A program made the position numbers and the translations under genes. Below are positions 3,182 through 57,775 of a DNA stretch of 64,000 nucleotides, in pieces (position 1 is the stretch's first letter; each line of letters starts with the position of its first letter). The notes under the pieces are model-generated. The model saw only the letters and a program-made list of their open reading frames with translations, did not search any database and was not told the origin of the DNA. Source of the stretch: Erodium maritimum (lineage: Eukaryota > Streptophyta > Magnoliopsida > Geraniales > Geraniaceae); NCBI GenBank assembly GCA_963921825.1, contig OY997594.1:14575001-14639000 (forward strand), in the 5' to 3' direction.

Positions 3182-4485
3182 TCATATGTGCTCAATCAGG
3201 TCATTTTGTAGTTGCCGGTGGGTGGAATCATTTGTGGCATTGAGTCGAGCGTCCAAGCGTGTTTGGTATGCCAAGGGACCTGCTCGGTGCCATCGCTCTA
3301 GTGGAGTCCATCCTGGCATTTTTGGAGGGGGGTTGAACAACAATTCGTCATCTCCATACTCGTACCGGTCGCGTTCATCCTCTACAATCATGTTGTGTAG
3401 GATGGTACACGTGTGCATGATATCAGCCATAACGAACTTGCTCCAAACACGAGCGAGACGGGAAATGATGTGCCACCGTGCTTGAAAGAACTCCAAATGC
3501 CCGTTCAATATCTTTCCGAGCTTCTTCTTGGATCTTAGTAAACAATTTCTGTTTGTTAGTGTAGGGATACCGAATAGTCTTCACGAACCGACTCCATAAT
3601 GGGTAAATGCCGTCCAACAAATAATAGGGTCGGTCATACTGATGGTCGTTGATCTCGTACTCCACGGCAAGCTCACGTCCCAAGAAAGCATTGTGGAATA
3701 AATGGTTGTTGTTGAGAACATTGATGTCGTTGTTCGACCCATCCATCCCGAAAAAAGCATGCCAAATCCATAAATCACGGGACACTACAACTTCAAGCAT
3801 AATGGTACTTACCCAGTGGTGACTTCCCCGTCCATTGGCACATTGCGATGCGGTTAGGCAATTCTTCCACTCCCAATGCATACAGTCAAGACTCTCAATC
3901 ATGTCGGGGAACCCTCGGTTGTACCCCTATCTGAGTAATCGGGTCATGTCTTCTGGTGTGGGTGAACGCTCGTACTCAGCCCCGAAAACCTCAATGACGG
4001 CCTTGCAAAATCTGTGTAAACATTCGAGTATTGTACTTACCCAATGCGTAAGGTTTCGTCCAACGAATTGGCCGAGCACCCATACGCAAGCATCTGTATC
4101 GCAGCGGTACATTTATGGTGCGTTGATAACCCTATGCGTCCTGCAGCGTCCGACTTCTGAACGAAGTAAGCATCATGCTCTGCTACCTTGTCCATCACCC
4201 GCTTAAACAATGGTCGACACATACGAAACCGACGCCTAAACATAGTTGGCCCATACAAGGGCTGATCGACAATATAATCATTCATTAGTTTGTCGTGGGC
4301 TTCGAGACGACCTCTAGGAATATCCCGTCGGGCAGGTTCCCCACGCTCGATCCTCTCTCTCACAGCTTGATTCTTGGCATTATTCTCTGTATGCCTCTCT
4401 CAACCCTTCGCTGGAGTCGTTCTTCAATTATAAGCATTTGCACTGTCAACTCCTCATATGATGGGAGACCGTCATCACCAGACAT
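3182..4485 (-). pseudogene. PIF/Harbinger DDE transposase, frameshifted
   Basis: This is a cut-and-paste transposase of the PIF/Harbinger group. Pieces in order: start MSGDDGLPSYEEL at 4485; an indel near 4365; then ERGEPARRDIPRGRLEAHDKL and MFRRRFRM (4363-4037); an internal stop near 3930; then ESLDCMHWEWKNC with the first catalytic Asp (about 3890), LLDGIYPLW with the second Asp (about 3620) and DIERAFGV with the catalytic Glu (about 3500). After a further frameshift near 3485 the C-terminal FFQARWHIISRL and CTILHNMIVEDER continue to a stop at 3182. All three acidic residues of the DDE triad are still visible, but at least three lesions interrupt the frame. A TATA box lies about 90 bp upstream. 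Confidence 0.88.
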
Positions 4486-9338: not shown

Positions 9339-12300
9339 TTTTGGACAAAATACAGCCTAGTGCATCCGGTATAGTAAAACTGGGCCACGATTGGACAGAC
9401 ACAGAACGGGCCTCCCGAGTTAACCAGTGGGTTGCCCCGTTCGCTGTCCTAAAAATGTACTCGAGTTTAACATCCTCGAGAATAGCTAGTAGAGATCGAC
9501 AATCGTCAACTAGTCGACCTAAAGGGGAAAGGACCTTATGGTTCCCTTGGATCAAGTGCACCAAATATTGAGCATCATTGCGGATGACCACTCTAGATAG
9601 AGACTGCTCCCGAATCCACTAAAGAGCCTCACAAACTGCCATTGCCTCCACAAATTCAGCCCCCGGGATTCCTTGACCCGTGGCACTCCAGCCTTCCAAA
9701 ATCCCTCCTTGATCCGTCCTACAAATCCAACCCCAGCCAAACTGCACTGAGTGTGAAAATATCTCCATGCACATTGATGGACGAGCATGCCAGGAGGGGT
9801 GGGGTCCACCCTGTTTGCCTGCTTCGAACAGTGACACTCGGTTTTATCCGACCTCTATGTGCTTCAACCCAACTGTGTTGGTTGCATATGAATGTGGCTA
9901 TGATACTCTGGGATCTCGTGGAAGCATTGTCCCAAACAAATTCATTCATCGCCTTCCATATTTCCCATAAGGTCATCGCCACCCTACATTTCGCATCCAT
10001 ACCTGAAAATTCAAGGACCAATGACTACCAATCAAGTAGAGTATATTGTGATGATATAGGAACCTGTAACCCCGACAATGCACAGACGGCCTGAGCAAAA
10101 TGGCAATTTAGTAGGAGGTGCGAAGTAGTCTCCTCCTCGGTCTGACATACAAGACAATAGATCGATACAGGGACATGTTTAGTATAGAGGTTCGCCGCTA
10201 CCTGAAGTGTACCCTATAGAGTCCGCCAGAGAACGACTTTTATATGGGGTTGAGTGTCCAAATCCCATATACCTGTCTAAGACATGGCCCCCATAGTATA
10301 GTGTCAGCGTCCATTTTCCCTTGATAGAGCCTTGTACCCCTCTTTAACACTGTAGATGCCAGAACATTATATTTCCAGAAGCATCTATCCACATGATGAG
10401 GAATGGGAGCCGGGACTTGCATGATGTCCTCCACTATCCCTGGGGGGGAATTTTGGTGGAGTTTCGGTCTGTCCCATTCCCTTCACTGTGACGTAGCTAG
10501 GTCCGAGATCAACATATTAGGGGTAAGTGAGGTGTGTAGCGGGATGATTGGGTCGCTCCCTATTAGCCACGGGACGCCCTCAACTAGGGTTGACCGGCCA
10601 TCCCCAATTGCACGGCGCAGGCCCTGTTGGAGGATGTTTTGAGTGGCCCGTACCCCCGTCCAGATATGACTCGGGTTATTGCCCTCACTTGCACTGAGAA
10701 AGTTCCTTGTTGGATAATAGCAGGCTTAAAAAACTCGAGCCACCAAACTGTCCAGTTGAGTAAGGAATTTCCAACCCATTTTTGCCAACAAGGCAATGTT
10801 CATGTCCCTCATGTCCTGAAAGGCCATACCACCTTCCTCCTTCGGCTTACACATATTTTTCCAATCCTTCCAAATGATTAGCTTTTTACCTCGGGGAGTA
10901 CCTATCCACCAATAGCGAGCTAAAGCAATAAATATATGTTTTATGGACCCCTATGGCAGCATGAAAACACTCATCGCATATATTGACATTGCTTGTAAGA
11001 CGGATTGGACCATTACCTCTTTTTCTTCTGCTGAGAGCATCTGACCATCCCAGGAGCCGATCTTGGTCACAATCCGATCACACAAAAAAACTGTAGGCTC
11101 TTTCCTTTCCGTCTCCCCAGCATATTCGGGACTCGCAAATACATCGAAGGTTGGGATATCTCCTGTATGCCCAAAGTGGTGCAACATATATCTCGATCAG
11201 CCTAGGGCGTGTTGGTGCAGAAAAATATGGACGACTTCGCCTTGTTAATGACCTACCCCGACATTGTCTCAAAAAAATTAAGTAGTTGATGCACCTATTC
11301 GGCCTCATTCTTGTTTGCCCTGCAAAATATGTAGCAGTCATCGGCGAAGAAAATATGTGATATGATTGGGGCTCCCCTGGCCACCAAGACCCTATGCAAT
11401 TTCCCATCCATTTTTCCTATGCCAACATACGAGATAAAACATCCATGCAGAATAAAAACAAATAAGGTGATAAAGGGTCTCCCTGACGAATTCCCCGACC
11501 TTTTGTGAAAGGGACAGTGTTCTTCCCGTTAGAGCTAACTGTATACTGGATGGATCACATGCACGCGAGAACCAGAGGTATCCACCTTGAACCAAATCCA
11601 AACGCTCCCATCATAGCTAATAGGAAATACCACTCTACTCGGTCGTATGCCTTACTCATATCGAGTTTCAAGGCCATAAACTCGTTTAGACCGTGAGTCC
11701 GTCGTCTAAGGGCGTGTATGATCTCATATGAGATGAAAATATCATCCTGTATTGCTCTCCCAAGGACGAAGGCTCCTTGTTTTATAGATATGATCGGGTC
11801 CAACAAGGGCTTGAGACGGTTGGCGAGGACCTTGGATAGGATTCTAAATATTACATTGCATAACGCAATGGGACGGAGATCTGCAATTTTTCTGGCCGAC
11901 ACTTTCTTGAGGATCAACACCAATGTAGTTTTATTGATTTCACTATCAATATTCCCGGTGGCGACAGTTGATCGAACGAAATCAATAATCTTCGATCGCA
12001 AAGTATCCTAATAGTGCTGAAAGAATTTCTGACTGAGACCGTCTAGGTCTGGTGATTTTGACGGCCCCATTTGGAACACCGTTATCCGAACTTCCTCATC
12101 CGTGGCCGGTTGTATACATACGGTATTCTGGGCCAGGGGGATCGTGGTGGGGACAGACATTGGGAGATCATAATCTGTGCTCGGCCCTGCAATGAAAATC
12201 TATTTGAAGCAGTTTAACAACAAGTCACTCATACCTGTGTTCCAAGAGACTTTTATCCCGTCATCATTTTCCAGTACACTGATTTTGTTCCTCTTTTTCC

Positions 12301-45604: not shown

Positions 45605-46024
45605 AGTGACCTAGATTGAGCTGCAAAAGCTGGGTGAGTGAGTACAGTAGTTCGTCGGCAAGTATCGAAATTGAAGTATCGATTAAGGATGATTCCTTGT
45701 AGATCTTATTGTCTTTCCTTTTCTGTTTGCAGAGAGAGGATCTGAGCAGTGGAAGAGTATAGAAAGGAGGAGGCTTTCCAGTCTGGGTTTCATCTGGGAG
45801 AGCGTGATGCGAACCCTCATATCCAACGGTGTTCTTCAAAGTAGCCGTTACGCATTTCTGGAATTACCATAGTACCCTCTCACTTACTATTACTCACGCT
45901 GGGTGCCAATTTGATTAACTTTAAGTACCCCTTTTCACAGTTGGGGATAACAAAAAGAATTTGAAACGAGTAAATATGAGGATGTGTATTATTGTATAGT
46001 CAAACCAATATATAACACGGTAAA
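45605..46024. other. VPS2 leader and promoter
   Basis: An in-frame TAG stands three codons before the VPS2 start, which fixes it. Upstream to about 45840 is CT-rich leader on the minus strand. Beyond that no feature is seen up to the MULE. Confidence 0.5.
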
Positions 46025-46469
46025 GGGGGGAAATTGTGCTGAGCCTTAATAGAAGATGGAATTTGAGGGGTAGCCTCCGTAATTTGGCAATTTGGGTTTG
46101 AGCATTTGTTTTTTATTTTTTTAATAGAAAAGCTATGAAAGGACGAAAAAACCCTTTCTACTTTACTAAATTTTTCATTGTAACCCCGACCCCACCTCTT
46201 CATCTTCTTCCTCCTTACCCGATTCTCGGCATTCAAACACGAGAAAAAACCGGCAACTGTCGACGTCGACTCCGTCTTCATCCAAGCAGTGGGTCTCTTC
46301 AAATATCGACGGCGGCGGCTCCAACTCAGTCTCGAGGGTCCATTCAACTCGCACCTACTCGTTTCAGGTTAGAATTTTGGGTTTGTTTAGGTAGATGGTA
46401 GAGTTAGGTTCATCGCCGGTAAATGCGGGAAATCGCCGGCGATGATGGCCATTGCCGGGAAATGGCCAA

Positions 46470-47340
46470 AGGCCCGCCGAGTGACTTTAATTCGGCGGAG
46501 GATTGAACCCCTAGGGCCACGTAGTTGACTGGCCGAGGAAAACCTAATTTTGGCCGAACATTGGCCGATTTAGGTGATAATCCTCCAAACGATGGCCGAC
46601 GATATGTCAATCCTCCAGTGGAGTAAACAATGAGGGAATGGATGGGTCAATCCTCCTAAATTTGGCCGAGGAATTGTCAATCATCGGCGGGTCAATCCTC
46701 CAAAATTTGGCCGAGGATCTATCAATCCTCCAGTGTAGTGAACACTGAGGAAATGGGTCAATCCTCCAAAATTTGGCCGAGGATCTATCAATCCTCCAGT
46801 GTAGTGAACACTGAGGAAATGGGTCAATCCTCCAAAATTTGGCCGAGGATCTATCAATCCTCCAGTGTAGTGAACACTGAGGAAATGGGTCAATCCTCTA
46901 AAATTTGGCCGAGGATGTACCAATCCTCCAGGTGGCCGAGTTGGTCAAGCATCCTAATTCTGGCCGAGGATTTGTCAATCCTCCAAGTCAACAATGACGG
47001 GTTGTCAATCCTCGGCCGAGTGGGTCAATCCTCCGCCGAGTGGTGGAGTTGTCCAAAACACATGCTCTCTGGAATTTCCGATCGGCGAGGTTATTCGCCG
47101 AACACTGAGGAAATGGGTCAATCCTCCAAAATTTGGCCGAGGATGTGCCAATCCTCCAGGTGGCCGAGTTGGTCAAGCATCATAATTATGGCCGAGGATT
47201 TGTCAATCCTCCAAGTCAACAATGACGGGTTGTCAATCCTCGGCCGAGTGGGTCAATCCTCCGCCGAGTGGTGGAGTTGTCCAAAACACATGCTCTCTGG
47301 AATTTCCGATCGGCGAGGTTATTCGCCGATCGGCCAATGA
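46470..47340. repeat. Motif cluster 1: 66-bp tandem units and 228-bp direct repeat
   Basis: Dense copies of CAATCCTC and GGCCGAGG words upstream of the Ulp1-like gene. At about 46740-46905 a 66-bp unit (starting AACACTGAGGAAATGGGTC) is repeated in tandem. Then 46873-47100 and 47101-47328 are two adjacent, nearly identical 228-bp units, each with CAATCCTCGGCCGAGTGGG, and each ends with GGAATTTCCGATCGGCGAGG. The open frames across this stretch are products of the repeat period being divisible by three. Confidence 0.88.
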
Positions 47341-47481
47341 CACAAATATGAGTCATTGTCAGATTTTCATGTTTTGCTTCTGGTTCACTCATAATTGAAT
47401 TATGCAATTGGTATTGGAATTATAGAAGTATTTATTTGAGCTTGTTTTATATTGTCATTGGAATTGCAATAGCCTCGGTAA

Positions 47482-50400
47482 ATGGCAACAGAAGGGCAAG
47501 GTATTGAACAAAGCGATGACAGTGTCACCCGATCAGTTGCCAGTGCAACCCCGTCTGAGCACCCGAATAGGGTTCGTCGACTTCGAACTAAACTCCAAGA
47601 AGATGAGTTGTTCGAATGTCGGATAACCGTGAGATGTGGTTATGAGAAGTGGATAAAGGACGTGAAGGAGTTAAGGGATGGTAATGAGAACATAGTTGCA
47701 GCTATTGAGCAGGGTCCGTTCGGTAAGTTCCTGAACTTACCGACGAAGTTTAACCAGTCAAACAACATTGCGTGGGCCCTTGTCGTGAGGAGCGCAGATG
47801 TTTGTCCATGGTCTGAGGTGTGGTTCGTCGTTAAAGGGACACCAATTAGGTTGTCCATCAAGGAGTATGCGATGATCACCGGGTTATGCTGCTCAGCTCC
47901 AGATTTGGAAGACCCAACGATGGTAGAGCAAATGAAGTCGACAGCATTCAAGCAAAGACATTTCCAAGATCACAATCGTGGAGTGTCGGTGTTAGACCTT
48001 GAGAAGAAGTTAAAAGAACTAAAGAACACCCTGTCGACCTCAGGCCGCCGAAGAATCGCGGAAGAGCGAGAAATTTGCAAGGTCATTAACTTGATCTTCG
48101 TTGGGGATTGTTTGGTACCCCATTCAAAAAAACACAAAGCGATCAATGCCAAGTGGTTGGGGCTAGTGGACAACATAGAAATGTTTGAGAGGTTCCCCTG
48201 GGGATATGTGTCCTTCAAACGTCTAAGGGATGAGTGCTTTCGAGACTTGAGAGCTAAGTCCCAGGGCTTGGGAGCAGATAGAAGGGGTGCGACATACACC
48301 TTCTCTTGTTTTATCCCTGCGTTAATGGTAAGTAACATCAGTCAAATTATTTATTAATAGTTTTATCATTTTCTAAATCATAGTATCGTTGATAAATTAA
48401 CTTCTGTACGTAATAGATATTGGCGTTGGAGTGTATTCCGAAACTTGCCGAAGCATTTGTGAAGGAGAACGAGGGATACACTGATGAGTTGCCACGAATG
48501 TTCAAATGGAACATGTCGTGGGCAAAGGCACCGGCGGCGGAAGCAGTTACTGCAGAACTTGCAAAACCTGAGGTAATACAATTTAAACAATTTAATTCAA
48601 TTGCATGTATATATTAACGTACTTCTGAAGGACATCGGGAATATCAAATTCATGTAAATGTAATTTGTGTGCAGGTGCAGGTGGCCCAGAGTATCCTCAT
48701 TCCTACGGAAGCAGAGATGCAACGTCCGTGGATGCAGGATATCGCAGAAATACCGGCAAGGGAGAGGAATCCTAGAACGGACAGGATTTCTGAAATTCTA
48801 GAGAGGGGCGGGACAATTGAATGGGAGGATGAAGAAGGGAACCCGGTTGTGGATGAGGAGGTGGGTGAGGAGGCAGCCAGAACGATGGAAATTGGCCAGT
48901 CGTCTCGTCAGGCTGAGGCGCAGGCAGATAGGGTCGGTGATCGAAACAGTGAAGAAGACCTCGTACACACTACTTAGGAAGAAGGGGGCGGGCTGGTGCT
49001 CAGTCGGCAGTCCCGGCTGATATCCAGGCTGTCCGGGATGATATCCGAACGGTCCGGGACGAGATCCGAGGTGTGGACGGTAGATTACGAGCGGTTGAGG
49101 GTCAACTAACTGAAATCCTCAACCTACTTCGCGCCCAGGCCGGTGCCCGGGACGTGCCTCAGCGCCTGCCATCCGAGTCGCATCCACCCCCCCAGCGAGA
49201 CGAGTCGGGTCCCCGTCCATCTGGTTCACGCCACCATTCTGATGGCCCCCCCGGCGATCCTCTTGCTGCCCATGTGGAGGAGGTTGCTGATTGTCAGTCT
49301 CAGGCTCATTCTGCTGGTCGTCCATCAGGTACCTCGGTTGGAGGAACGCATCAGGTGGCAGTGTCTGAGCCTATCCCTCTATCTGTGAGGGTTGTTACGT
49401 CTCAGCCACAAGCATCATGTGCAGCAGTTGAAGAGGTGGGGGAGTCGGAGGATCAGCATCATTCGGAGCAGGTGGCTGCAGCTGAGCCTGCTGAGGGTGC
49501 GTTTCAGACTGTGACTTCTTGGCTTAGGGACAACTCAGAAGAAGCTGCAGATGAGGGGGCAGAAGGCACTGGGGAGGTTCAGTCTACGGCCCAACATGGT
49601 AGTCCTATTGTCCGGGGATCTTTAGTTGATATCCTCGGCAGTCCCCCGGCTCCCAGTTCACGGAAGAGAAAGAGATCCCGAGTGGTTAGTACGATACTAG
49701 GGACTGAGGTGACATAGTGGAAGCCTACAAAGACGATACCTCATCAGTTGGCCGTGGTTTCGAAGGTCGTCGATGAAAGGCGTTTCCCCGCGGATGCCCC
49801 GAGGCACAACACTTATTTCATAGCCCTCGCAACAAGCGCTAGATGGGTCACCGAAGAGGTAATGCGTTTGAAAATATTTACTTTTTTCATGCTTTAATTT
49901 TGGTAATGCTTATAAACAGTACTACGTTTGTGCAGCAAATGGATGACGCGTTGATTGGGATACGGTTGAGGCAACTTCGTTATCCTAGGGTTTTCAAAGT
50001 TCCGGGGCAAATAGTACTGGATGTCCTGTTCCATAAACTATTGGAGGCACAGTTTGAAGCCCGAGTTGAACCAGACCTCCGTTTGATGGAATATGCTCGG
50101 GGGAAGTTGCCGGAGATGCATAGTAAGTCGTGGACGTATGCTCAGCACATTTATTTTCCAGTGAGATTGGTGATGGGCCACTGGCTATTGCTGGTCGTTG
50201 ACGTACAAGCGCGTAGGATCAAAGTGTACGACAGCTCTACAAAAGCTCTAGCCGCCAACAAGTTAGTGACTATAATGCAACCTTATGTGCATATGATCCC
50301 CAAGATGCTCCATCGTGTTTTACCCGGATCAGCGGAGACGTTGACGCCTTATGAGCAGGACTTCCCGTTCGATAGGGTGGCCCATTTACCTCAAGTTACA

Positions 50401-50662
50401 AAGTATGTCACAAGTCCTTTAATAACTTATTCAATTATTTTAATTAATTCCACAACTTCAACATAATATATGTTGTTATGTTTGTAGGACGGGCGATTCG
50501 GGGATCTATGTACTTAAGTTCATCGAACTGGAGTTGGCGGGAATAGATATCGAGCCTAACGTGAGAACCAGCCTAATTCGCCAGTTCCGCAAGAAGTATT
50601 GTGTTCATATGCTGACGGATCACCAACATCTTTTGTACACTTCTGTACTCTATATAAACTGA
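47482..50662 (+). pseudogene. DUF1985-like plus Ulp1/C48 protease-like protein of the MULE (5 exons)
   Basis: Exons: 47482-48327, 48417-48572, 48675-49858, 49936-50402 and 50488-50662, with good GT-AG sites and matching phases. Exon 1 (282 codons; FGKFLNLPTKF, WSEVWFVVKGTPIRLSIKEY, ITGLCC) is of the DUF1985 type that precedes Ulp1-like domains in plant MULEs. Exon 3 encodes a charged linker and a heptad-like stretch (AVRDDIRTVRDEIRGVDGR). Exons 4-5 carry the C48 core: GHWLLLVVDV (His), KVYDSS (Asp), LPQVTK (Gln) and TGDSGIYVLKFIE, where the catalytic Cys of the usual DCG box is Ser. A frame change lies between about 48915 and 48980, and an in-frame TAG is at 49715. The domain could bind SUMO-like targets but should not cleave. 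SUMO proteases are the family reference. Confidence 0.8.
50650..50658 (+). promoter_or_regulatory. Possible TATA box before ORF-A
   Basis: CTATATAAA overlaps the last codons of the Ulp1-like gene, about 320 bp before ORF-A. It would fit if ORF-A has a spliced leader, as the acceptor next to its ATG suggests. Confidence 0.3.
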
Positions 50663-50759
50663 AACCCCAAAACGTGTGACTTTTGCATATATATGTGTTA
50701 GACCTTGAAAGTTTATTATTTCCAGCAAAATATTACGATAAGATATATATGTTCTACCC

Positions 50760-50835
50760 GATTGGATCCCAATCCTCCGTTGACCATAGTCAATCCTCCG
50801 TCGAATATATCAATCCTCCGCTGATCGGAATAGGT
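50760..50835. repeat. Motif cluster 2
   Basis: CCAATCCTCCGTTGA, TCAATCCTCCGTCGA and TCAATCCTCCGCTGATCGG, spaced about 20-25 bp apart. Confidence 0.8.
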
Positions 50836-50980
50836 ATTATCTGTACTCCAACCATCGCCACTTCCAGCCTACCAAGTATCTGTCAAGTTTTATCGGAATA
50901 GGTATTCGATGCATGTTGTTGCCTTTTTTTTGTAGATGTGTTTTTTTTTGTAGTGTAACGATGTAATTGTTTCTGACAGA

Positions 50981-51325
50981 ATGGATCCCAACGATGTGAA
51001 TCGTGAGGAGGAGCGTCGATGGATAAGACAGGAGCTAGCCGGAGAATACGTCACAATGTTGGCCAACGGGAGAATAGTCAGAATGCCCGAACGACTATAT
51101 CAAGCACCGGAACCATCATGGTCGGTAGAGTACTACCGGTTACTTGATGAAGCAAATCAGCAGCTGGACCAACTGGAGGCCCTTATGCGCGAGAAAAATT
51201 TACCATGTCCTCCGCTCCCTCATGGTGACAACCCATTTATTCAACCGCGGATGAACGAGGATGACCTTCTTCATTCTTGGGAGGAGCCTGCTTGGTTCCG
51301 GGAGTACAGACAGTGGATGGTTTGA
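50981..51325 (+). CDS. ORF-A, 114-residue MULE accessory protein
   Basis: Unrecognised family. It starts MDPNDVNREEERRWIRQEL immediately after a TTTCTGACAG acceptor-like site, so a leader intron is likely. It is highly charged. The central part is helical (YRLLDEANQQLDQLEALMRE), followed by a Pro-rich turn KNLPCPPLPHGDNPF and a C-terminal EEPAWFREYRQWM. It is a paralogue of ORF-B 1 kb downstream, which has the same order (helix, KNLRCPPP, EEPRWFHAFVQWM). The shared pattern across two copies argues that both were under selection as proteins. No function is proposed. Confidence 0.65.
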   Translation: MDPNDVNREEERRWIRQELAGEYVTMLANGRIVRMPERLYQAPEPSWSVEYYRLLDEANQQLDQLEALMREKNLPCPPLPHGDNPFIQPRMNEDDLLHSWEEPAWFREYRQWMV

Positions 51326-51444
51326 AACCAAGAAATTACACAGAGGCTCATTCACATTCTGCTAGCTGCGTAGTGTACTGTATTTTGGATTTGAACTGTA
51401 TTACTTATGGTACTTGGATGAATAAACTGTGGACTTGTACTATC

Positions 51445-51620
51445 AGTATGTCAATCCTCGGCCGAATCTGGTACCAATCCCCGCCGATTATGTCAATCAT
51501 CCCGGCCGAATATTTTACACCCCGGCCGAACTTTTAGGTACTCGGCCGAGTAATTCAATCCTCGGCCGAACATGTCAATCATCGGCCGAGTAATTCAATC
51601 CCCCGCCGATTGAAGTATCT
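51445..51620. repeat. Motif cluster 3
   Basis: At least seven copies, such as GTCAATCCTCGGCCGAA, CCAATCCCCGCCGA, TCAATCATCGGCCGAG and TCAATCCCCCGCCGA, in a row between ORF-A and ORF-B. Confidence 0.85.
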
Positions 51621-51805
51621 ATTTTGGCAATTAGATTCAATGAATTGCATTGCACTTAATTCTATGCACGCACTACATTCAATGCAGTCAACATATTAAT
51701 GTATACAATGAATTCTATGCACGCACTACATTCAAGACAGTCAACATATTAATGTATCACATTTATTATGACACACACACCAACCAATCCATGTCTCACC
51801 ACGCC

Positions 51806-51813
51806 TATAAATT
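51806..51813 (+). promoter_or_regulatory. TATA box of ORF-B
   Basis: TATAAATT in CCACGCCTATAAATTGGG. The same CACGCCTATAAA context precedes ORF-C at 53538. A leader intron (donor TCGTAG|GTACTA near 51884, acceptor GTGACAG at 51960) follows. Confidence 0.6.
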
Positions 51814-51962
51814 GGGCTAAGGAGAACCATTCCTTGCACTCCAACTCTGTTATCTGTCATACTGTCAAACACAAAAATTTCGTAGGTACTATTTTTGCAT
51901 TATAAATTCATACAACCTATCAGTTTTATTTTAATTCGACTCGTACATATGTTTGTGACAGG

Positions 51963-52313
51963 ATGGCATCCAACAATGATCCTCGTCTTGATCGTAGGTG
52001 GAGGCGTCGGGAGAACGTCGGAACTGTAGTATTTGTCGCGCCACCACCGTTGTTGGTTCAGTACGACTGCATACTCGCTGAGTCACATCAGCGGGCGGAC
52101 CGAATTGAGGAAGCCCTGCAACAGAAGAACCTACGGTGTCCTCCACCCCTTGATGGTGAACACCCATTTCAGTTCCCAGATTTTGACGGAATGGCTCGTG
52201 ACCTTCGGAGGCCTTCTTACGAAGAGCCTCGATGGTTTCATGCTTTCGTACAGTGGATGGATGAATGTAGAGAAGCCGAGGAGAGGCTCCTTAATAGTCT
52301 GCTAGATGAGTAA
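51963..52313 (+). CDS. ORF-B, 116-residue MULE accessory protein
   Basis: A paralogue of ORF-A. It starts MASNNDPRLDRRWRRRENVG directly after an intron acceptor. It has a helical centre (AESHQRADRIEEALQQ), then KNLRCPPPLDGEHPFQF, then EEPRWFHAFVQWMDECREAE. The motif PxLLVQYDxxLAExxQ corresponds to the WSVEYYRLLDEANQ part of ORF-A. Own TATA box and leader intron. The family is not known to me. The conserved CPP turn and the W-F-x(4)-QWM end may be a protein-binding surface, but that is speculation. Confidence 0.65.
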   Translation: MASNNDPRLDRRWRRRENVGTVVFVAPPPLLVQYDCILAESHQRADRIEEALQQKNLRCPPPLDGEHPFQFPDFDGMARDLRRPSYEEPRWFHAFVQWMDECREAEERLLNSLLDE

Positions 52314-52404
52314 TATATTAATGTTTTTGAACTTCCATAAGTATGCTATTTGGATTAAATAAAATGAAATTAGCTTATGTTTTGTTTGCAATATACCGTT
52401 GATT

Positions 52405-52540
52405 ATGGTCCCAATCCCCCGCCGAATGAAGTCATTCCCCCGCCGAATGAATTCCTTCGACCGCCGAATGAAGTCATTCCACCGCCGAATAAGTCATTCC
52501 TCGGCCGAGTAGTTCAATCCGTCGCCGAGTAGGACACAAC
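52405..52540. repeat. Motif cluster 4
   Basis: Successive CCCAATCCCCCGCCGAATG, GTCATTCCCCCGCCGAATG, GTCATTCCACCGCCGAAT, GTCATTCCTCGGCCGAGT and TTCAATCCGTCGCCGAGT, with spacing near 20 bp. Confidence 0.88.
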
Positions 52541-52544
52541 CCAA

Positions 52545-52940
52545 ATTCTCTAACCCTAAACCATAATCCCTAAAACCAATCCTCAAACCCTTAACCATAA
52601 ACCTCAACACTTGAAACCTTAAAACCAACCTTAATAAGTCAACTCTAAACGAGAAAAACCCTAACCCTACAACCCTAACCCTAGAACTGAACCCAACACT
52701 CTAACCCTCAAACTCTAACCCTAAGAGTGTAACCCTAACAAGGTAACCCATACACCCAAAACCCTAAGAAACCATTTGTAAGAAGTACACTTGAAGCATA
52801 AAACTCTAACACTACAACTGTAACCCTACAATTATAACCCTAAAACTATAACCCCTACAGTTGAAACCCTAAACCCTAAACCTAATAGGTACAGTCTAAC
52901 CCTACTACAGTATCCCTAAACCCTAAACCTAATACGTAAT
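52545..52940. repeat. Degenerate telomere-like (CCCTAAA) stretch
   Basis: Many words CCCTAAACCCTAA, AACCCTAACCC and related, broken by other sequence. Further short stretches are at 53110-53145, 53283-53315 and 53420-53460. This is an interstitial, not terminal, array, because genes and motif clusters continue on both sides. Confidence 0.75.
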
Positions 52941-53024
52941 GTTGTTTGGTTTTGAACATCCATAACTATGTTGTTTGGATGAAATCAAATGAAATTAGCT
53001 TATGTTTTGTTTGCAATATACCGA

Positions 53025-53405
53025 TGATTCTTGTCCCAATCCTCCGCCGATCAATTCAATCCTCCGCCGAGTGAAGTAAATCCTCGGCCGAGCAGGTCAA
53101 TCCCCCGCCGAGTTTGCCAAACCCTAACCCTAAACCCTAACACCCTAATCCGTACAACCAATCCCCCGCCGACTGATGTCAAACCTCCGACGAGTGAGGT
53201 CATTCCTCCGCTGATCAATTCAATCCTCCGCCGAGTGAAGTCAATCCTCGGCCGAGCAGGTCAGTCCCCCGCCGAGTTTGCCAAACCCTAACCCTAAACC
53301 CTAACACCCTAATCCGTACAACCAATCCCCCGCCGACTGATGCCAATCCTCTGAGGATTGAGGTCAATCCTCCGCCGACCTCGTCAATCCGCCGCCGATT
53401 ATGAC
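53025..53405. repeat. Motif cluster 5 with a ~180-bp direct repeat
   Basis: Rows of TCAATCCTCCGCCGAGTG, TCAATCCTCGGCCGAGCAGG and TCAATCCCCCGCCGAGTT. The block from GATCAATTCAATCCTCCG to CCAATCCCCCGCCGACTGAT occurs twice (about 53048-53177 and 53211-53341). Confidence 0.85.
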
Positions 53406-53537
53406 ATACCCAACAATTTCTTAGCCTAAAACTTTAACCCTAAAACTCTAACCACCATTGAAGTCTTCCCAACCACCACCAACCCTATATTAATAGAACC
53501 CACCACCCAACTTACATTAATGGAAATGCACCACGCC

Positions 53538-53544
53538 TATAAAA
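53538..53544 (+). promoter_or_regulatory. TATA box of ORF-C
   Basis: TATAAAA in CACGCCTATAAAACCC, about 70 bp before the ATG at 53609, with a CT-rich leader between. Confidence 0.6.
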
Positions 53545-53608
53545 CCCACTCTTCACTCCAACCCTCTTCACTTCACTCATCACTAATCTTTCACTCACTT
53601 CATCAAAA

Positions 53609-53878
53609 ATGCCTGAACCTTTAAGAGACATCATCACTACACAACGCGTTCAACTTCAACACCAGGAGAGGTTGGATAAGCTGCAGAAGATCAGGATAAG
53701 TCTTCTCCGGGTTTCAGTGAAAGCTGATGCTCTGATGGACAAGCTGAGACTAGCCGATAGACATGGATGGACAGATGCAGACGAGAATAATGCGCGTCTC
53801 GTGTTGGAGCAGCTCGAAGGACTTCGACACTTCGTCTTGTCCTTCACTCACCAAGACGAGCTCATTACCCATTGGTAA
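53609..53878 (+). CDS. ORF-C, 89-residue helical MULE accessory protein
   Basis: Starts MPEPLRDIITTQRVQLQHQE. Almost all of it looks alpha-helical with heptad spacing (RLDKLQKIRISLLRVSVKAD, ALMDKLRLADRHGW), ending HFVLSFTHQDELITHW. No resemblance to ORF-A or ORF-B beyond size and promoter, and no known family. It lies convergent to the transposase gene, separated by motif cluster 6. Confidence 0.55.
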   Translation: MPEPLRDIITTQRVQLQHQERLDKLQKIRISLLRVSVKADALMDKLRLADRHGWTDADENNARLVLEQLEGLRHFVLSFTHQDELITHW

Positions 53879-53999
53879 AAGTTTTATCGGAAACAAAGAC
53901 CTCAAGTTTTCAACTCCTTATGATAGTCTTTGTTGTAATGTTTAATTATGCTACTCGGATGAATGAAAGAAGTTTATATTTTTCAATTTAACGTTGCTG

Positions 54000-54175
54000 T
54001 GGTATCAATCCTTCGCCGAGTCTGCCAATCCTCGGCCGAATATCTCAATCATCCGCCGAATATATCAATCCGCCGCCGAATAGGTCATTCCTCCGCCGAT
54101 TGGGCCTTGTTCATAAAATCACTACTCTCTGGAATTTCCGATCGGTAGACTGCCTTGTGTAATTAGCCGATCGGC
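54000..54175. repeat. Motif cluster 6
   Basis: TCAATCCTTCGCCGAGT, CCAATCCTCGGCCGAAT, TCAATCATCCGCCGAAT, TCAATCCGCCGCCGAAT and GTCATTCCTCCGCCGATT. The run ends with CTCTGGAATTTCCGATCGG, which also ends the 228-bp units of cluster 1. Confidence 0.85.
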
Positions 54176-54334
54176 CAACTGCACTTACCTACAAACCTTG
54201 CCATGTGCAAGGAAAAAAGGGGATACATTCAACACATCTAAGGAATACATGGTACCCTTAAACATAGATTCGAGTTACAAATAGTAGCATAATCGAAAAC
54301 AAATACATAGTCCGTGAAACAAACATAAATTATC

Positions 54335-56823
54335 CTACACATTAGATGTAGAAGCAACCGAAGGACAAGTTCGTTTGTTGTGACCAACAGTCGAACAAAT
54401 TCCACATTTTCGTGGACGCTTTGGAGCCGCTGCAGTCGCTCTAGGGTCCTCACCTGCTGAAGGAATTCTTCTCTCACCTCTTCTACCGAGTTCAACTACA
54501 AACTTTGGTGGCTCAACTTCAATAAGGTCACGAAGTTCATCAACATTCCACTCTGTTTCTCGTAACACTGGATAAATGGTTCCATGATAAGCGAGCGCCC
54601 ATGCTTGTACCGAAGAGTAGTCGTCGCATAGCTCGTACATATCCATGTTAGCATCCTCACAACACGCTAATGCATGAGTACAAGGGATTCTATCGATGTC
54701 AAACTTCCGACAACCGCATGTCCTCTTAACCAAATCAACCAAGACGTCATCGAAAGGACCGGTAACCCGATACTGGCCAAGTCTGTTCAGTGGTGTTATT
54801 TGCATTTTCTTCGCTTTGAAGATCCTCTTAGCAATGATACTCTCTACCTTGTGAACCACAACTTGGCAATCCGGTAATTTGGCCATCACATCTCGACGTA
54901 GCATGAACCATTCACTAACCTTTTCCTGTATGGCGTTGAACAACGCAATAATGGGCCACTCTCTCTGTTTTCGTAATGTGTTGTTGATGGATTCACAACC
55001 GTTCGTTGTCATGATATTGTACCGAGCGGCCTCGAAGAAAGCTCTCGCCCATTGAGGACGTTCTATGTTCGTTGTCTCCACATATCTCGCAGCCTCGGGG
55101 TACAATTCTTGGAACTGTTCCCACCTAGCATTGAACTTTTCTGGTGTGTACGCATCAGCAACTTTTTGGAATAACTGAGAAATACCCTCCTTGTCCCTTC
55201 CCCCATGATGAGATTTGACATTTCGACTCAAATGCCACCTACAATGGCCATATTTATCCTTTGGGTAGTGTTCCATCACTGCCTTCCTGATACTTCCATG
55301 TCTATCGGAAAGGATAACCAAGTCATCCTCGTCCGGGATCTCCGGCCTCAACTTTTGGAAGAACCAATTCCATGAAGCGTCTGTCTCCCTGTCAACCACA
55401 GCCCAAGCTATAGGATATTGGTGACGGTTACCATCTTCCCCGATTGCAAGTAGCAATACCCCTTTATACTTTGTTTTCAACCACGTACCATCTACTAAGA
55501 TCACCTTTCTCAAGGCAAGTTTAAATCCATCAATGCATGGTCGAAATGCTATAAAAACATAGTGAAATCTACCATGCTCATCCACCTTCAAATGAGTTAC
55601 TGCCCCTTCATTCATCTTCCAAACTTGAAACAAATATGCTGGGATTAATCCATAACTTAAATCAGGATCCCCTACAAGTTTAATCATCGCCAACAACCGA
55701 GCCCTCCAACACTTCCAGTATTTATATTCGCCAAGTTTGTCATTCTTGAAATCGTCTTGAAGAATCCTTGGACAAGGAATATGTTTCTGACCAGCATATT
55801 GTTTAGCCACCAAACAGGCCAGTGCTTCTGAACTCAGTTGACCTCTTCGGGTGCTGCGATCACGGGCCAAACAAGTATGGAAAGACTCGTAGGTTCTAAT
55901 GGAGAATTCATCAGATCCCCGATCTTTGGCTCCACGCACTCTCCATCTACAATCAACACCATGACATTTTGCAATGTATAGCGTTTTTGAATATCTATCT
56001 CGGTCTATCCAAAATTTATCCTTCTTTGCAACCTCTCTCAGATACGTAACAAATGCTTCCTTGTTACGAAACTTTTTACCAACTACTAAATCTGACCGAT
56101 CACTGAAACCGATATTGGTTTGTTCTGGATCCATGTTATCTAACGGAAACTGATGGTTTGTAGAACAATACTCCACCATTTGACCGTTCTCTTCGATACC
56201 ATCCAAACTTACCATCACTGGCGTAGGAGCTGGTATACTATCCAAACTAACCATCACTGGCGTAGAAGCTGGTATACTATCCAAACTTACCATCACTGGC
56301 GTTGGAGATGATGCTTCTGCCTCAGTATCAACCTCTGTACGTCGATGCCGAATAACTAGGTTCTCAGCGTTCTCTACACGACTACAAATATCCAAGTCAA
56401 AATGACCATCGTACCCACCATTCTCATTTCCATCATCGTGGACCCTCTCTTCAACTGCCGCACCACTGTTATCTTTTTTTTTTTGATCAGCTCTACACGT
56501 AACATGGTTCTACGACATTCTTTCATGTTTTCAGCTACTACATACCGAACACCCATATCCGTTACAATCCAAACTGGAGAGATAATTTCTGTGTAATTGG
56601 GCAAATAAGGTTGGTAACTAAGTTTCAATTCTGTATCATTTTCATTCACCCCAATTTCGGAATACAGCAGTTCCTTTAATGTTTTCAATGTTGCATTGGC
56701 ACCATCAGCAATAGCAAGACCAATAATTTTATTGTTTGTTGATGATATCCATTTATAGTTCCCATCCTCCTCTACCTTATATTCCCCACCGTAAGTAGCA
56801 TGAATCACTGCAACTTCACCCAT
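54335..56823 (-). pseudogene. MuDR-type MULE transposase, one homopolymer frameshift
   Basis: Start at 56823 (MGEVAVIHATYGGEY, the N-terminal domain of plant MULE transposases). An A11 run (T11 on the plus strand, 56474-56484) breaks the frame. From 56395 a 686-codon frame continues to the stop at 54335. In order: GKKFRNKEAFVTYLREVAKK (MuDR N-domain), the MULE core with RKVILVDGTWLKTKYKG (first Asp), DLVILSDRHGSIRKAV (second Asp) and MTTNGCESINNTLRKQRE (Glu), a SWIM zinc finger (CGCRKFDIDRIPCTHALACC) and a CCHC knuckle (CGICSTVGHNKRTC). All catalytic and zinc residues are present. Only the single homopolymer shift separates the two parts, so the gene is recent, or intact with an assembly error. 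Confidence 0.92.
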
Positions 56824-56924
56824 TTCATGTACAATTACCACCTATTTCATTTAGGACATTACATTAACCATACACAGACCCATAATACTAACAATACTAA
56901 AAATGTAGGGTACTCTAGGATTAT

Positions 56925-57075
56925 GCATCCGGCCGATCGGCGAAATGTGGCCGAAGGAGTCCCTGGCCGATGACCGAAGGGAGTCACTCGCCGATTACCT
57001 TGGCCGATGACCGAAGGTAGTCCCTGGCCGATTGACTCCAATCGGCGCTTCAGGCCGACTGACTTCAATCGGCGA
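56925..57075. repeat. Motif cluster 7 (transposase promoter side)
   Basis: Variant units GGCCGATGACCGAAGG(G/T)AGTC and GGCCGATTGACTCCAATCGGCG in alternation, upstream of the transposase. They share the GGCCGA core with the other clusters, but the CAATCCTC half is altered. Confidence 0.75.
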
Positions 57076-57635
57076 CCTTCTCCTACCACATGCCTTCCTC
57101 TGGTTTGTTTCCCTAAACCGCATCTACTCTACTCCACCCTTTTCCAATCTACTCCAATCTATTCCAATCTATTCCAATCTTTGTGTGTACAACCTTTGTG
57201 TGTATAGCCTTTTTTTCTCAAAACCCTATAACTCAAATTAAAGCTTCAGATTAACATTTCTGGTTTACTTACTTGGGCTCACTGCCTAGGAGGAAGACAG
57301 GGTCGGGACGGTGGTGGACGACGCTCGGGACGGTGCTGGACGGCGATCTGGACGGCGGTGAACGTACGGCAGATAAGATTTGTTGAAGCACCTCGTGTCG
57401 GGTCAAATTGTGGGGATATATTTGGAATTGGGTTTGTTTTGCAAATATAGAAATTGGGTATTTGGGGTGTGTTTTGTAAATATAGAAACTTGGGTTCTCT
57501 TTTTGCAATTAAAGACAAGGGTAGAAGAGGTATGCTGAAACTTTCATTAACTTGAAGGCTTTTTTCAAATTCCATCTTTGCTTGAGGTTTTTTTCAAATT
57601 CAATATCCTATTAAGGCTAAAAACAAAATTCACCC

Positions 57636-57775
57636 TCAAAAAGGGCTGAATTTTAGAATATTGTCCGTATCATAGTAACTAATCCGGTTGTTATGAATCC
57701 GTAGAAATAGTCTATTTTATTTTTGTAAACACATCATGAGAACATCCCCTTCCCAATATTTCAAATAAAAGAAAA
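57636..57775. other. Short spacer after the MULE
   Basis: No feature recognised. Confidence 0.3.

Follow-up and report, generated by a model that had tools for sequence, protein, structure and literature searches.

Directional GC-rich motif arrays in a Mutator-like element of Erodium maritimum as probable targets of an element-encoded VANC-like anti-silencing protein

The 64,000-nucleotide stretch of Erodium maritimum DNA analyzed here (GenBank assembly GCA_963921825.1, contig OY997594.1, forward-strand positions 14,575,001 to 14,639,000; hereafter the window) carries a transposon at window positions 46024-57636, which we assign to the Mutator-like elements (MULEs) on the basis of its terminal arms and transposase domains. 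Its non-coding parts hold dense arrays of a 14-bp, GC-rich core, CAATCCTCSGCCGA, which contains two CpGs and is found almost exclusively in one orientation. The same element encodes a relative of VANC21, described in passages of PMC5735166 as the protein that counteracts silencing of VANDAL21, an Arabidopsis element. Arguing from sequence, we think it likely that the element's own VANC-like protein targets these arrays and that they serve to free the element from silencing, in which case this would be a VANC-type system that uses another target word rather than a new mechanism. The initial annotation of this stretch had described seven clusters of one short, nearly palindromic motif filling all non-coding intervals of the element. 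The motif proves to be real and, in the window, confined to the element, but one of the seven clusters lacks the core, and neither the occupation of every interval nor the palindrome withstands closer counting.

We searched both strands of the whole window for CAATCCTCSGCCGA, allowing no mismatch, at most one or at most two. Exact copies number 12 on the forward strand and 1 on the reverse strand, rising to 27 and 1 when one mismatch is allowed and to 34 and 1 when two are allowed. All 35 of the last set lie inside 46492-54099, and the remaining 52 kb contain none. A position weight matrix (PWM) was built from these matches of up to two mismatches and then run over the window. At 12 bits or more it finds 34+1 sites (forward plus reverse) in the element and none outside, whereas 60 simulations under a first-order Markov model of the element give a mean of 0.35 chance sites and a maximum of 1. 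Relaxing the threshold to at least 10 bits yields 35+5 sites in the element and 1 outside, and at least 8 bits yields 41+7 and 8, respectively. The earlier remark that the motif is not seen elsewhere in the window is therefore upheld, and equal abundance in unrelated regions can be rejected within these 64 kb. The half-sites are less exclusive to the element than the whole core: counting both strands, CAATCCTC occurs 33 times in the element and 3 times outside, GGCCGA 44 and 13 times, and GCCGA 86 and 51 times, with 0, 0 and 7 of the respective element copies lying in exons. In a literature search for CAATCCTCSGCCGA and for a 10-base part of it, only the 10-base part was present among the matches listed.

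The cores are restricted to the non-coding parts of the element, as had been judged by eye. None of the 35 touches the assumed exons, the limits of which come from open frames and splice signals (6301 bp coding and 5312 bp non-coding). The binomial probability of this avoidance is 1.3e-12 if the copies are treated as independent, and 0.002 if each of 8 clusters is counted only once. Moreover, the core is directional, with 34 of the 35 copies in the same orientation, and the 20-bp palindrome that had been thought close to the fullest form of the motif is found 0 times, which rules it out as the repeat unit. Whole cores occupy six intervals (arrays 1-6 in Table 1), but they are missing from the first gene's four inferred introns, from the first 0.47 kb of the element and from its last 3.5 kb. 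The proposed cluster at 56925-57075 also has no core, its best site reaching 10.3 bits (GAGTCCCTGGCCGA) and only the SGCCGA half being represented. In array 1, five whole cores, one of them inverted, are located at 46492 (reverse strand), 47006, 47026, 47234 and 47254, and the remainder of the proposed cluster consists of separated half-sites.

The spacing of the cores is regular. Of 26 neighbor distances below 70 bp among forward-strand cores, 16 are 20 bp, 6 are 21 bp, 2 are 42 bp and 2 are 61 bp, so that most show a step of 20-21 bp, or about two helical turns. Helical phasing over all half-site distances is only moderate, with a resultant, computed without a null model, of 0.72 at periods of 10.25 and 10.5 bp and of 0.56-0.70 at other periods between 9 and 12 bp. 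Half-sites 15, 36 and 55 bp apart fall out of this phase, and what emerges clearly is the step of 20-21 bp.

We then compared 32 copies from six clusters, excluding the two cores of a 228-bp duplicate and the inverted core and keeping the copies in a 164-bp duplication. The mean mismatch between copies is 0.140 in the core and 0.636 in the 6-bp linker, for which the chance expectation, calculated from linker composition, is 0.718. Core mismatch is 0.128 within clusters versus 0.143 between clusters, a difference reached by 634 of 5000 label shuffles, and the corresponding linker values are 0.636 and 0.637 (2255 of 5000 shuffles). Copies within a cluster are, as a result, not clearly more alike than copies from different clusters. 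The core looks selected because it is kept across clusters while the linkers are near random, although choosing the copies by core inflates the contrast. In units listed by hand in register, 30 of 36 retain the core.

These data bear on a purely passive origin, in which satellite-like repeats spread between the open reading frames (ORFs) by tandem and segmental duplication with no protein bound to them. The element does contain tandem repeats with periods of 20-21, 66, 164 and 228 bp. In addition, the 3' flanks of three small ORFs (ORF-A, ORF-B and ORF-C) and of a putative relic at 52925-53036 resemble one another beyond all 300 shuffles in five of six pairs, three of them narrowly (36 vs 34, 45 vs 43 and 42 vs 40), and the score of the sixth pair is reached by 1 of 300 shuffles. 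Because of these five pairs, the array-bearing intervals were probably duplicated, and the arrays probably spread in part via segmental duplication. The 3' flank of the VANC-like gene exceeds shuffles in none of four comparisons with the other 3' flanks, and none of the three pairs of 5' flanks of ORF-A, ORF-B and ORF-C is similar beyond shuffles. Passive repeats, however, should lose core and linker alike, whereas here the linkers are near random and the cores are kept (albeit in copies picked by core), also in most of the hand-listed units, and there is no clear excess of similarity inside clusters. Nor do the 66-, 228- and 164-bp duplications, or one recent tandem duplication, account for the arrays, because six separate intervals carry different linkers. 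We consider passive repetition very unlikely. Amplification of a functional site, as the initial annotation had proposed, fits better because the cores are kept, the linkers are near random and a VANC21 relative is encoded.

The evidence for this relative lies in the gene at 47482-50662. When exon 1, which contains a DUF1985 domain, is compared with PDB sequences, it matches VANC21 (9lnj, 9lnk; chain 9lnj_A) with an E value of 1.8e-10 over query residues 47-247, and VANC21 is the only PDB sequence to match at E values up to 10. At the C-terminal end of the gene is a Ulp1-like domain (PF02902, Peptidase_C48; E 4.6e-19 for the spliced domain), and the splice sites and collinearity suggest that both domains belong to one gene. 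In the Ulp1-like domain the His and Asp are 17 residues apart, and the segment TGDSGIYV (50488-50520) has Ser at the position that we take, from the Ulp1 active-site pattern, to be that of the catalytic Cys. The replacement may be old because TCG, which encodes this Ser, lies two changes away from either Cys codon, and the domain may be a pseudo-protease. The coding part also includes a 21-bp tandem repeat (3 copies, 49006-49067) that gives a seven-residue peptide repeat; tandem peptide motifs are reported in variable regions of VANC proteins in passages of PMC5735166. A single-sequence structure model of exon 1 had a mean predicted local distance difference test (pLDDT) score of 39.4, and no fold search was based on it; the one stretch in viral contigs that matched exon 1 was not confirmed.

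In the mechanism that we favor, this DUF1985-Ulp1 gene would encode, or would have encoded before decay, a DNA-binding anti-silencing factor able to recognize CAATCCTCSGCCGA as a directional site. With many sites phased at about two helical turns, the protein could bind one face of the DNA densely or cooperatively. Its occupancy of the gaps between genes would strip the element of DNA methylation and silent chromatin, so that the transposase and the VANC-like gene could be expressed. We infer both that the VANC-like protein binds this motif and that its binding removes silencing. The arrays themselves may have grown by local tandem duplication together with duplication of ORF-plus-array modules, selection having kept the core and probably also the spacing.

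Two other roles for the motif can be weighed at this point. The arrays adjoin the element's genes, a placement compatible with an enhancer or promoter element through which host transcription factors drive those genes, but 13 cores in one interval and copies 3' of genes exceed the needs of a promoter, and the element encodes a relative of a DNA-binding protein, VANC21. We regard this explanation as extremely unlikely. It is possible, but in our estimate rather doubtful, that the arrays belong to a methylation-reading system, in which methylation of the arrays would block or favor binding of the VANC-like protein and so create a bistable on/off switch, the Ser-containing Ulp1-like domain acting as a non-catalytic SUMO-pathway adaptor that aids the removal of silencing. 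Array methylation could affect binding because both consensus cores (S = G or C) carry two CpGs and one CHG site each, unlike the CpG-free motifs of VANC21 and the related protein VANC6. The observed/expected CpG ratio is 1.06 for the clusters together, with 0.80 for cluster 1 by itself. Exons have a ratio of 0.80, the remaining non-coding sequence 0.67 and the two flanks 0.80 and 0.71. None of these values is firm evidence on methylation because the motif itself contains CpG. Array 5 folded as a single DNA strand gives no sign of a strong hairpin (z -0.85, with 20 of 100 shuffles as good).

Several observations weigh against the interpretation of the arrays as targets of the VANC-like protein. 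The pairing of protein and motif is judged from one copy of the element, and conservation was measured on copies chosen by their cores. In this copy, the VANC-like gene is broken by a stop and frame change at 48975-48977 and by an in-frame TAG at 49715-49717, and the transposase reading frame shifts in a run of A near 56480 (56460-56500, minus strand). The transposase break suggests decay or a sequence error, and not an intron, because one relative (P0001) looks collinear across it by eye. Given the breaks in the VANC-like frame, and with the transposase frame change also counted toward a dead copy, the present element may be dead or may depend on other copies. The inferred introns are without the motif, whereas VANC21 occupies introns too, according to passages of PMC5735166. 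The VANC21 and VANC6 motifs are also only 8-9 bp long and free of CpG, in contrast to the 14-bp, GC-rich core with its two CpGs. Finally, searches of a large protein database found no relatives of the DUF1985 protein at E <= 0.001, either for exon 1 read to the next stop (1409 candidates) or for region 45-330 of the 941-residue reading (2123 candidates). These empty searches may reflect the effect of the word filter on a fast-evolving family, because the homology to VANC21 is clear.

Table 1. Positions, in window coordinates, of the motif arrays, genes and ends of the Erodium maritimum element.
Feature	Position	Strand	Remarks
Left terminal inverted repeat, degenerate	46024..46066	+	43 nt, 77% complementary to 57594-57636
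Array 1, 5' of VANC-like gene	46470..47340	+	Split half-sites CAATCCTC / GGCCGAGGAT, mostly within tandem repeats of 66 and 228 bp
Exon 1 of VANC-like gene, DUF1985	47482..48327	+	PF09331 E 2.2e-19; splice site inferred
Other inferred exons of VANC-like gene	48417-48572, 48675-49858, 49936-50402, 50488-50662	+	Splice signals
Array 2, 3' of VANC-like gene	50770..50824	+	3 cores
ORF-A, small protein	50981..51325	+	Paralogue of ORF-B
Array 3	51452..51609	+	4 cores and degenerate units
ORF-B, small protein	51963..52313	+	Paralogue of ORF-A
Array 4	52412..52528	+	5 cores and one degenerate unit; CATTCC in 3 of 5
Copy of ORF-B 3' flank	52925..53036	+	No ORF of at least 70 aa listed in front
Array 5	53037..53398	+	13 cores, partly in 164-bp duplication; telomere-like CCCTAA stretches between
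ORF-C, small protein	53609..53878	+	Open reading frame
Array 6	54006..54099	+	5 cores, exact 20-bp steps
MULE transposase	54335..56841	-	MULE 1.4e-20, Transposase_mut 1.9e-14, DBD_Tnp_Mut 6.4e-8, SWIM 1.6e-7
Half-site region 5' of transposase gene	56925..57075	-	Dense SGCCGA on both strands; no whole core
Right terminal inverted repeat	57594..57636	-	43 nt, pairs with 46024-46066

The transposase provides a further candidate for a protein that might bind the arrays. In the En/Spm element, TnpA binds arrays of subterminal repeats, and the arrays described here could by analogy be transposase binding sites used for transposition rather than anti-silencing. The SGCCGA half-sites are indeed dense just 5' of the transposase gene, and Spm TnpA and MURA are said, in passages of PMC10398659, to be able to lower methylation as well. 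On the other hand, 30 of the 35 cores are situated centrally in the element (50770-54099), none lies in its first 0.47 kb or last 3.5 kb, and only half-sites make up the cluster close to its right end, so that we consider a role as transposase sites quite improbable. Turning to the transposase itself, an N-terminal stretch resembling Plant_all_beta scores 22 bits, under the cut-off of 30, and a 39-bp tandem repeat (2.9 copies, 56196-56307) in the coding region gives a 13-residue peptide repeat. We searched for relatives at E <= 1e-5, scoring the 7997 candidates that share most words, and found 10 among the matches listed: one at 42%, six from Humulus, Cannabis and Morus at 35-45%, and three from Euphorbia and Cuscuta at 28-31%. 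These taxa point to a eudicot host but are no proof of one. Viral contigs gave no match to the transposase, and none of the 9 stretches matched in prokaryote and virus genome contigs was confirmed.

Among the small proteins, ORF-A and ORF-B are identical at 31 of 78 aligned positions (E 1e-14), and ORF-C is perhaps related to ORF-A, with 30% identity in a three-way alignment. No Pfam family reaches its cut-off for any of the three. The copy of the ORF-B 3' flank at 52925-53036 is a probable relic of a duplicated gene-plus-array module. Telomere-like AACCCTA units occur between and inside the arrays, with 18 starts in 52552-53481. A similar block with CTCTGGAATTTCCGATCGG and CCGATCGGCC is present both 5' of the VANC-like gene (47294-47340) and 3' of ORF-C (54125-54175), and the palindrome CCGATCGG is absent from the flanks. 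The terminal arms are degenerate but present, and a clean 9-bp target duplication was not seen by eye. Searches of the remaining sequence (blastn at 1e-3, tblastx at 1e-4) revealed nothing similar to the element. Fragments of a Plant_tran transposase at 3423-3926 (minus strand, E 3.5e-61) and of a reverse transcriptase at 11555-12007 (minus strand, E 9.3e-14) are present there. Rfam gave no match at gathering scores, and ARAGORN found no tRNA.

From its sequence alone, the element yields a candidate pair of protein and motif for a system that has been characterized experimentally in Arabidopsis. This MULE is probably a further case of a transposon marking itself so as to be rescued from host defenses. 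Because its word is so unlike those of VANC21 and VANC6 (long, GC-rich, with CpG and a two-turn spacing), the pair could help to show how DUF1985 proteins select the word that they bind, and also whether methylation of that word matters. The combination of a kept core, a near-random linker and a fixed spacing in one transposon is, in addition, a simple rule with which to search unannotated plant genomes for similar systems. Motif sequence, density and helical periodicity reportedly set specificity, and the 20-21 bp step seen here would fit such a periodicity rule.

The closest parallel is VANDAL21 (Hiun) of Arabidopsis thaliana. Like that element, the one described here has a transposase and an extra DUF1985 gene homologous by sequence to VANC21. 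Passages of PMC5735166 describe VANC21 as binding YAGTATTAY, in one orientation and at high density, in non-coding regions of VANDAL21, and as removing methylation at its motif regions and, for non-CG sites, more broadly; they also state that VANC targets expanded via tandem repeats and that the motif is rare elsewhere. The present arrays are likewise short motifs in one orientation, dense in non-coding parts, expanded by tandem repetition and rare elsewhere, here within the window. Unlike VANDAL21, whose 9-bp word has no CpG, the Erodium element uses CAATCCTCSGCCGA, places its arrays between genes with none in the inferred introns, and has a Ulp1-like domain and three small ORFs. VANDAL6 resembles it in that its VANC protein, too, has a motif of its own, repeated in tandem in non-coding regions, but VANC6 recognizes a different word, given in passages of PMC5735166 as AGTTGTCC or AGTTGTAC. 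According to an excerpt of the review PMC13317346, which cites Sasaki 2022, the VANC genes of certain VANDAL elements include a Ulp1 domain (KIU) and recognize the non-coding motifs of their own group. The gene found here likewise has a Ulp1-like domain, differing in that the expected catalytic Cys is Ser in the present copy. En/Spm belongs to the CACTA superfamily, its TnpA sites are subterminal, and TnpA is not known to be related to the VANC-like protein. The likeness to TnpA lies in an element-encoded protein tied to demethylation of its own element, as stated in passages of PMC10398659. VANDAL terminal inverted repeats are described in an excerpt of PMC6446971 as absent or degenerate, with a 9-bp target duplication. 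Taken within the window, the Erodium element combines four traits of the VANDAL/VANC system: a MULE transposase, a DUF1985 protein, a dense one-way motif in non-coding parts and targets in tandem repeats.

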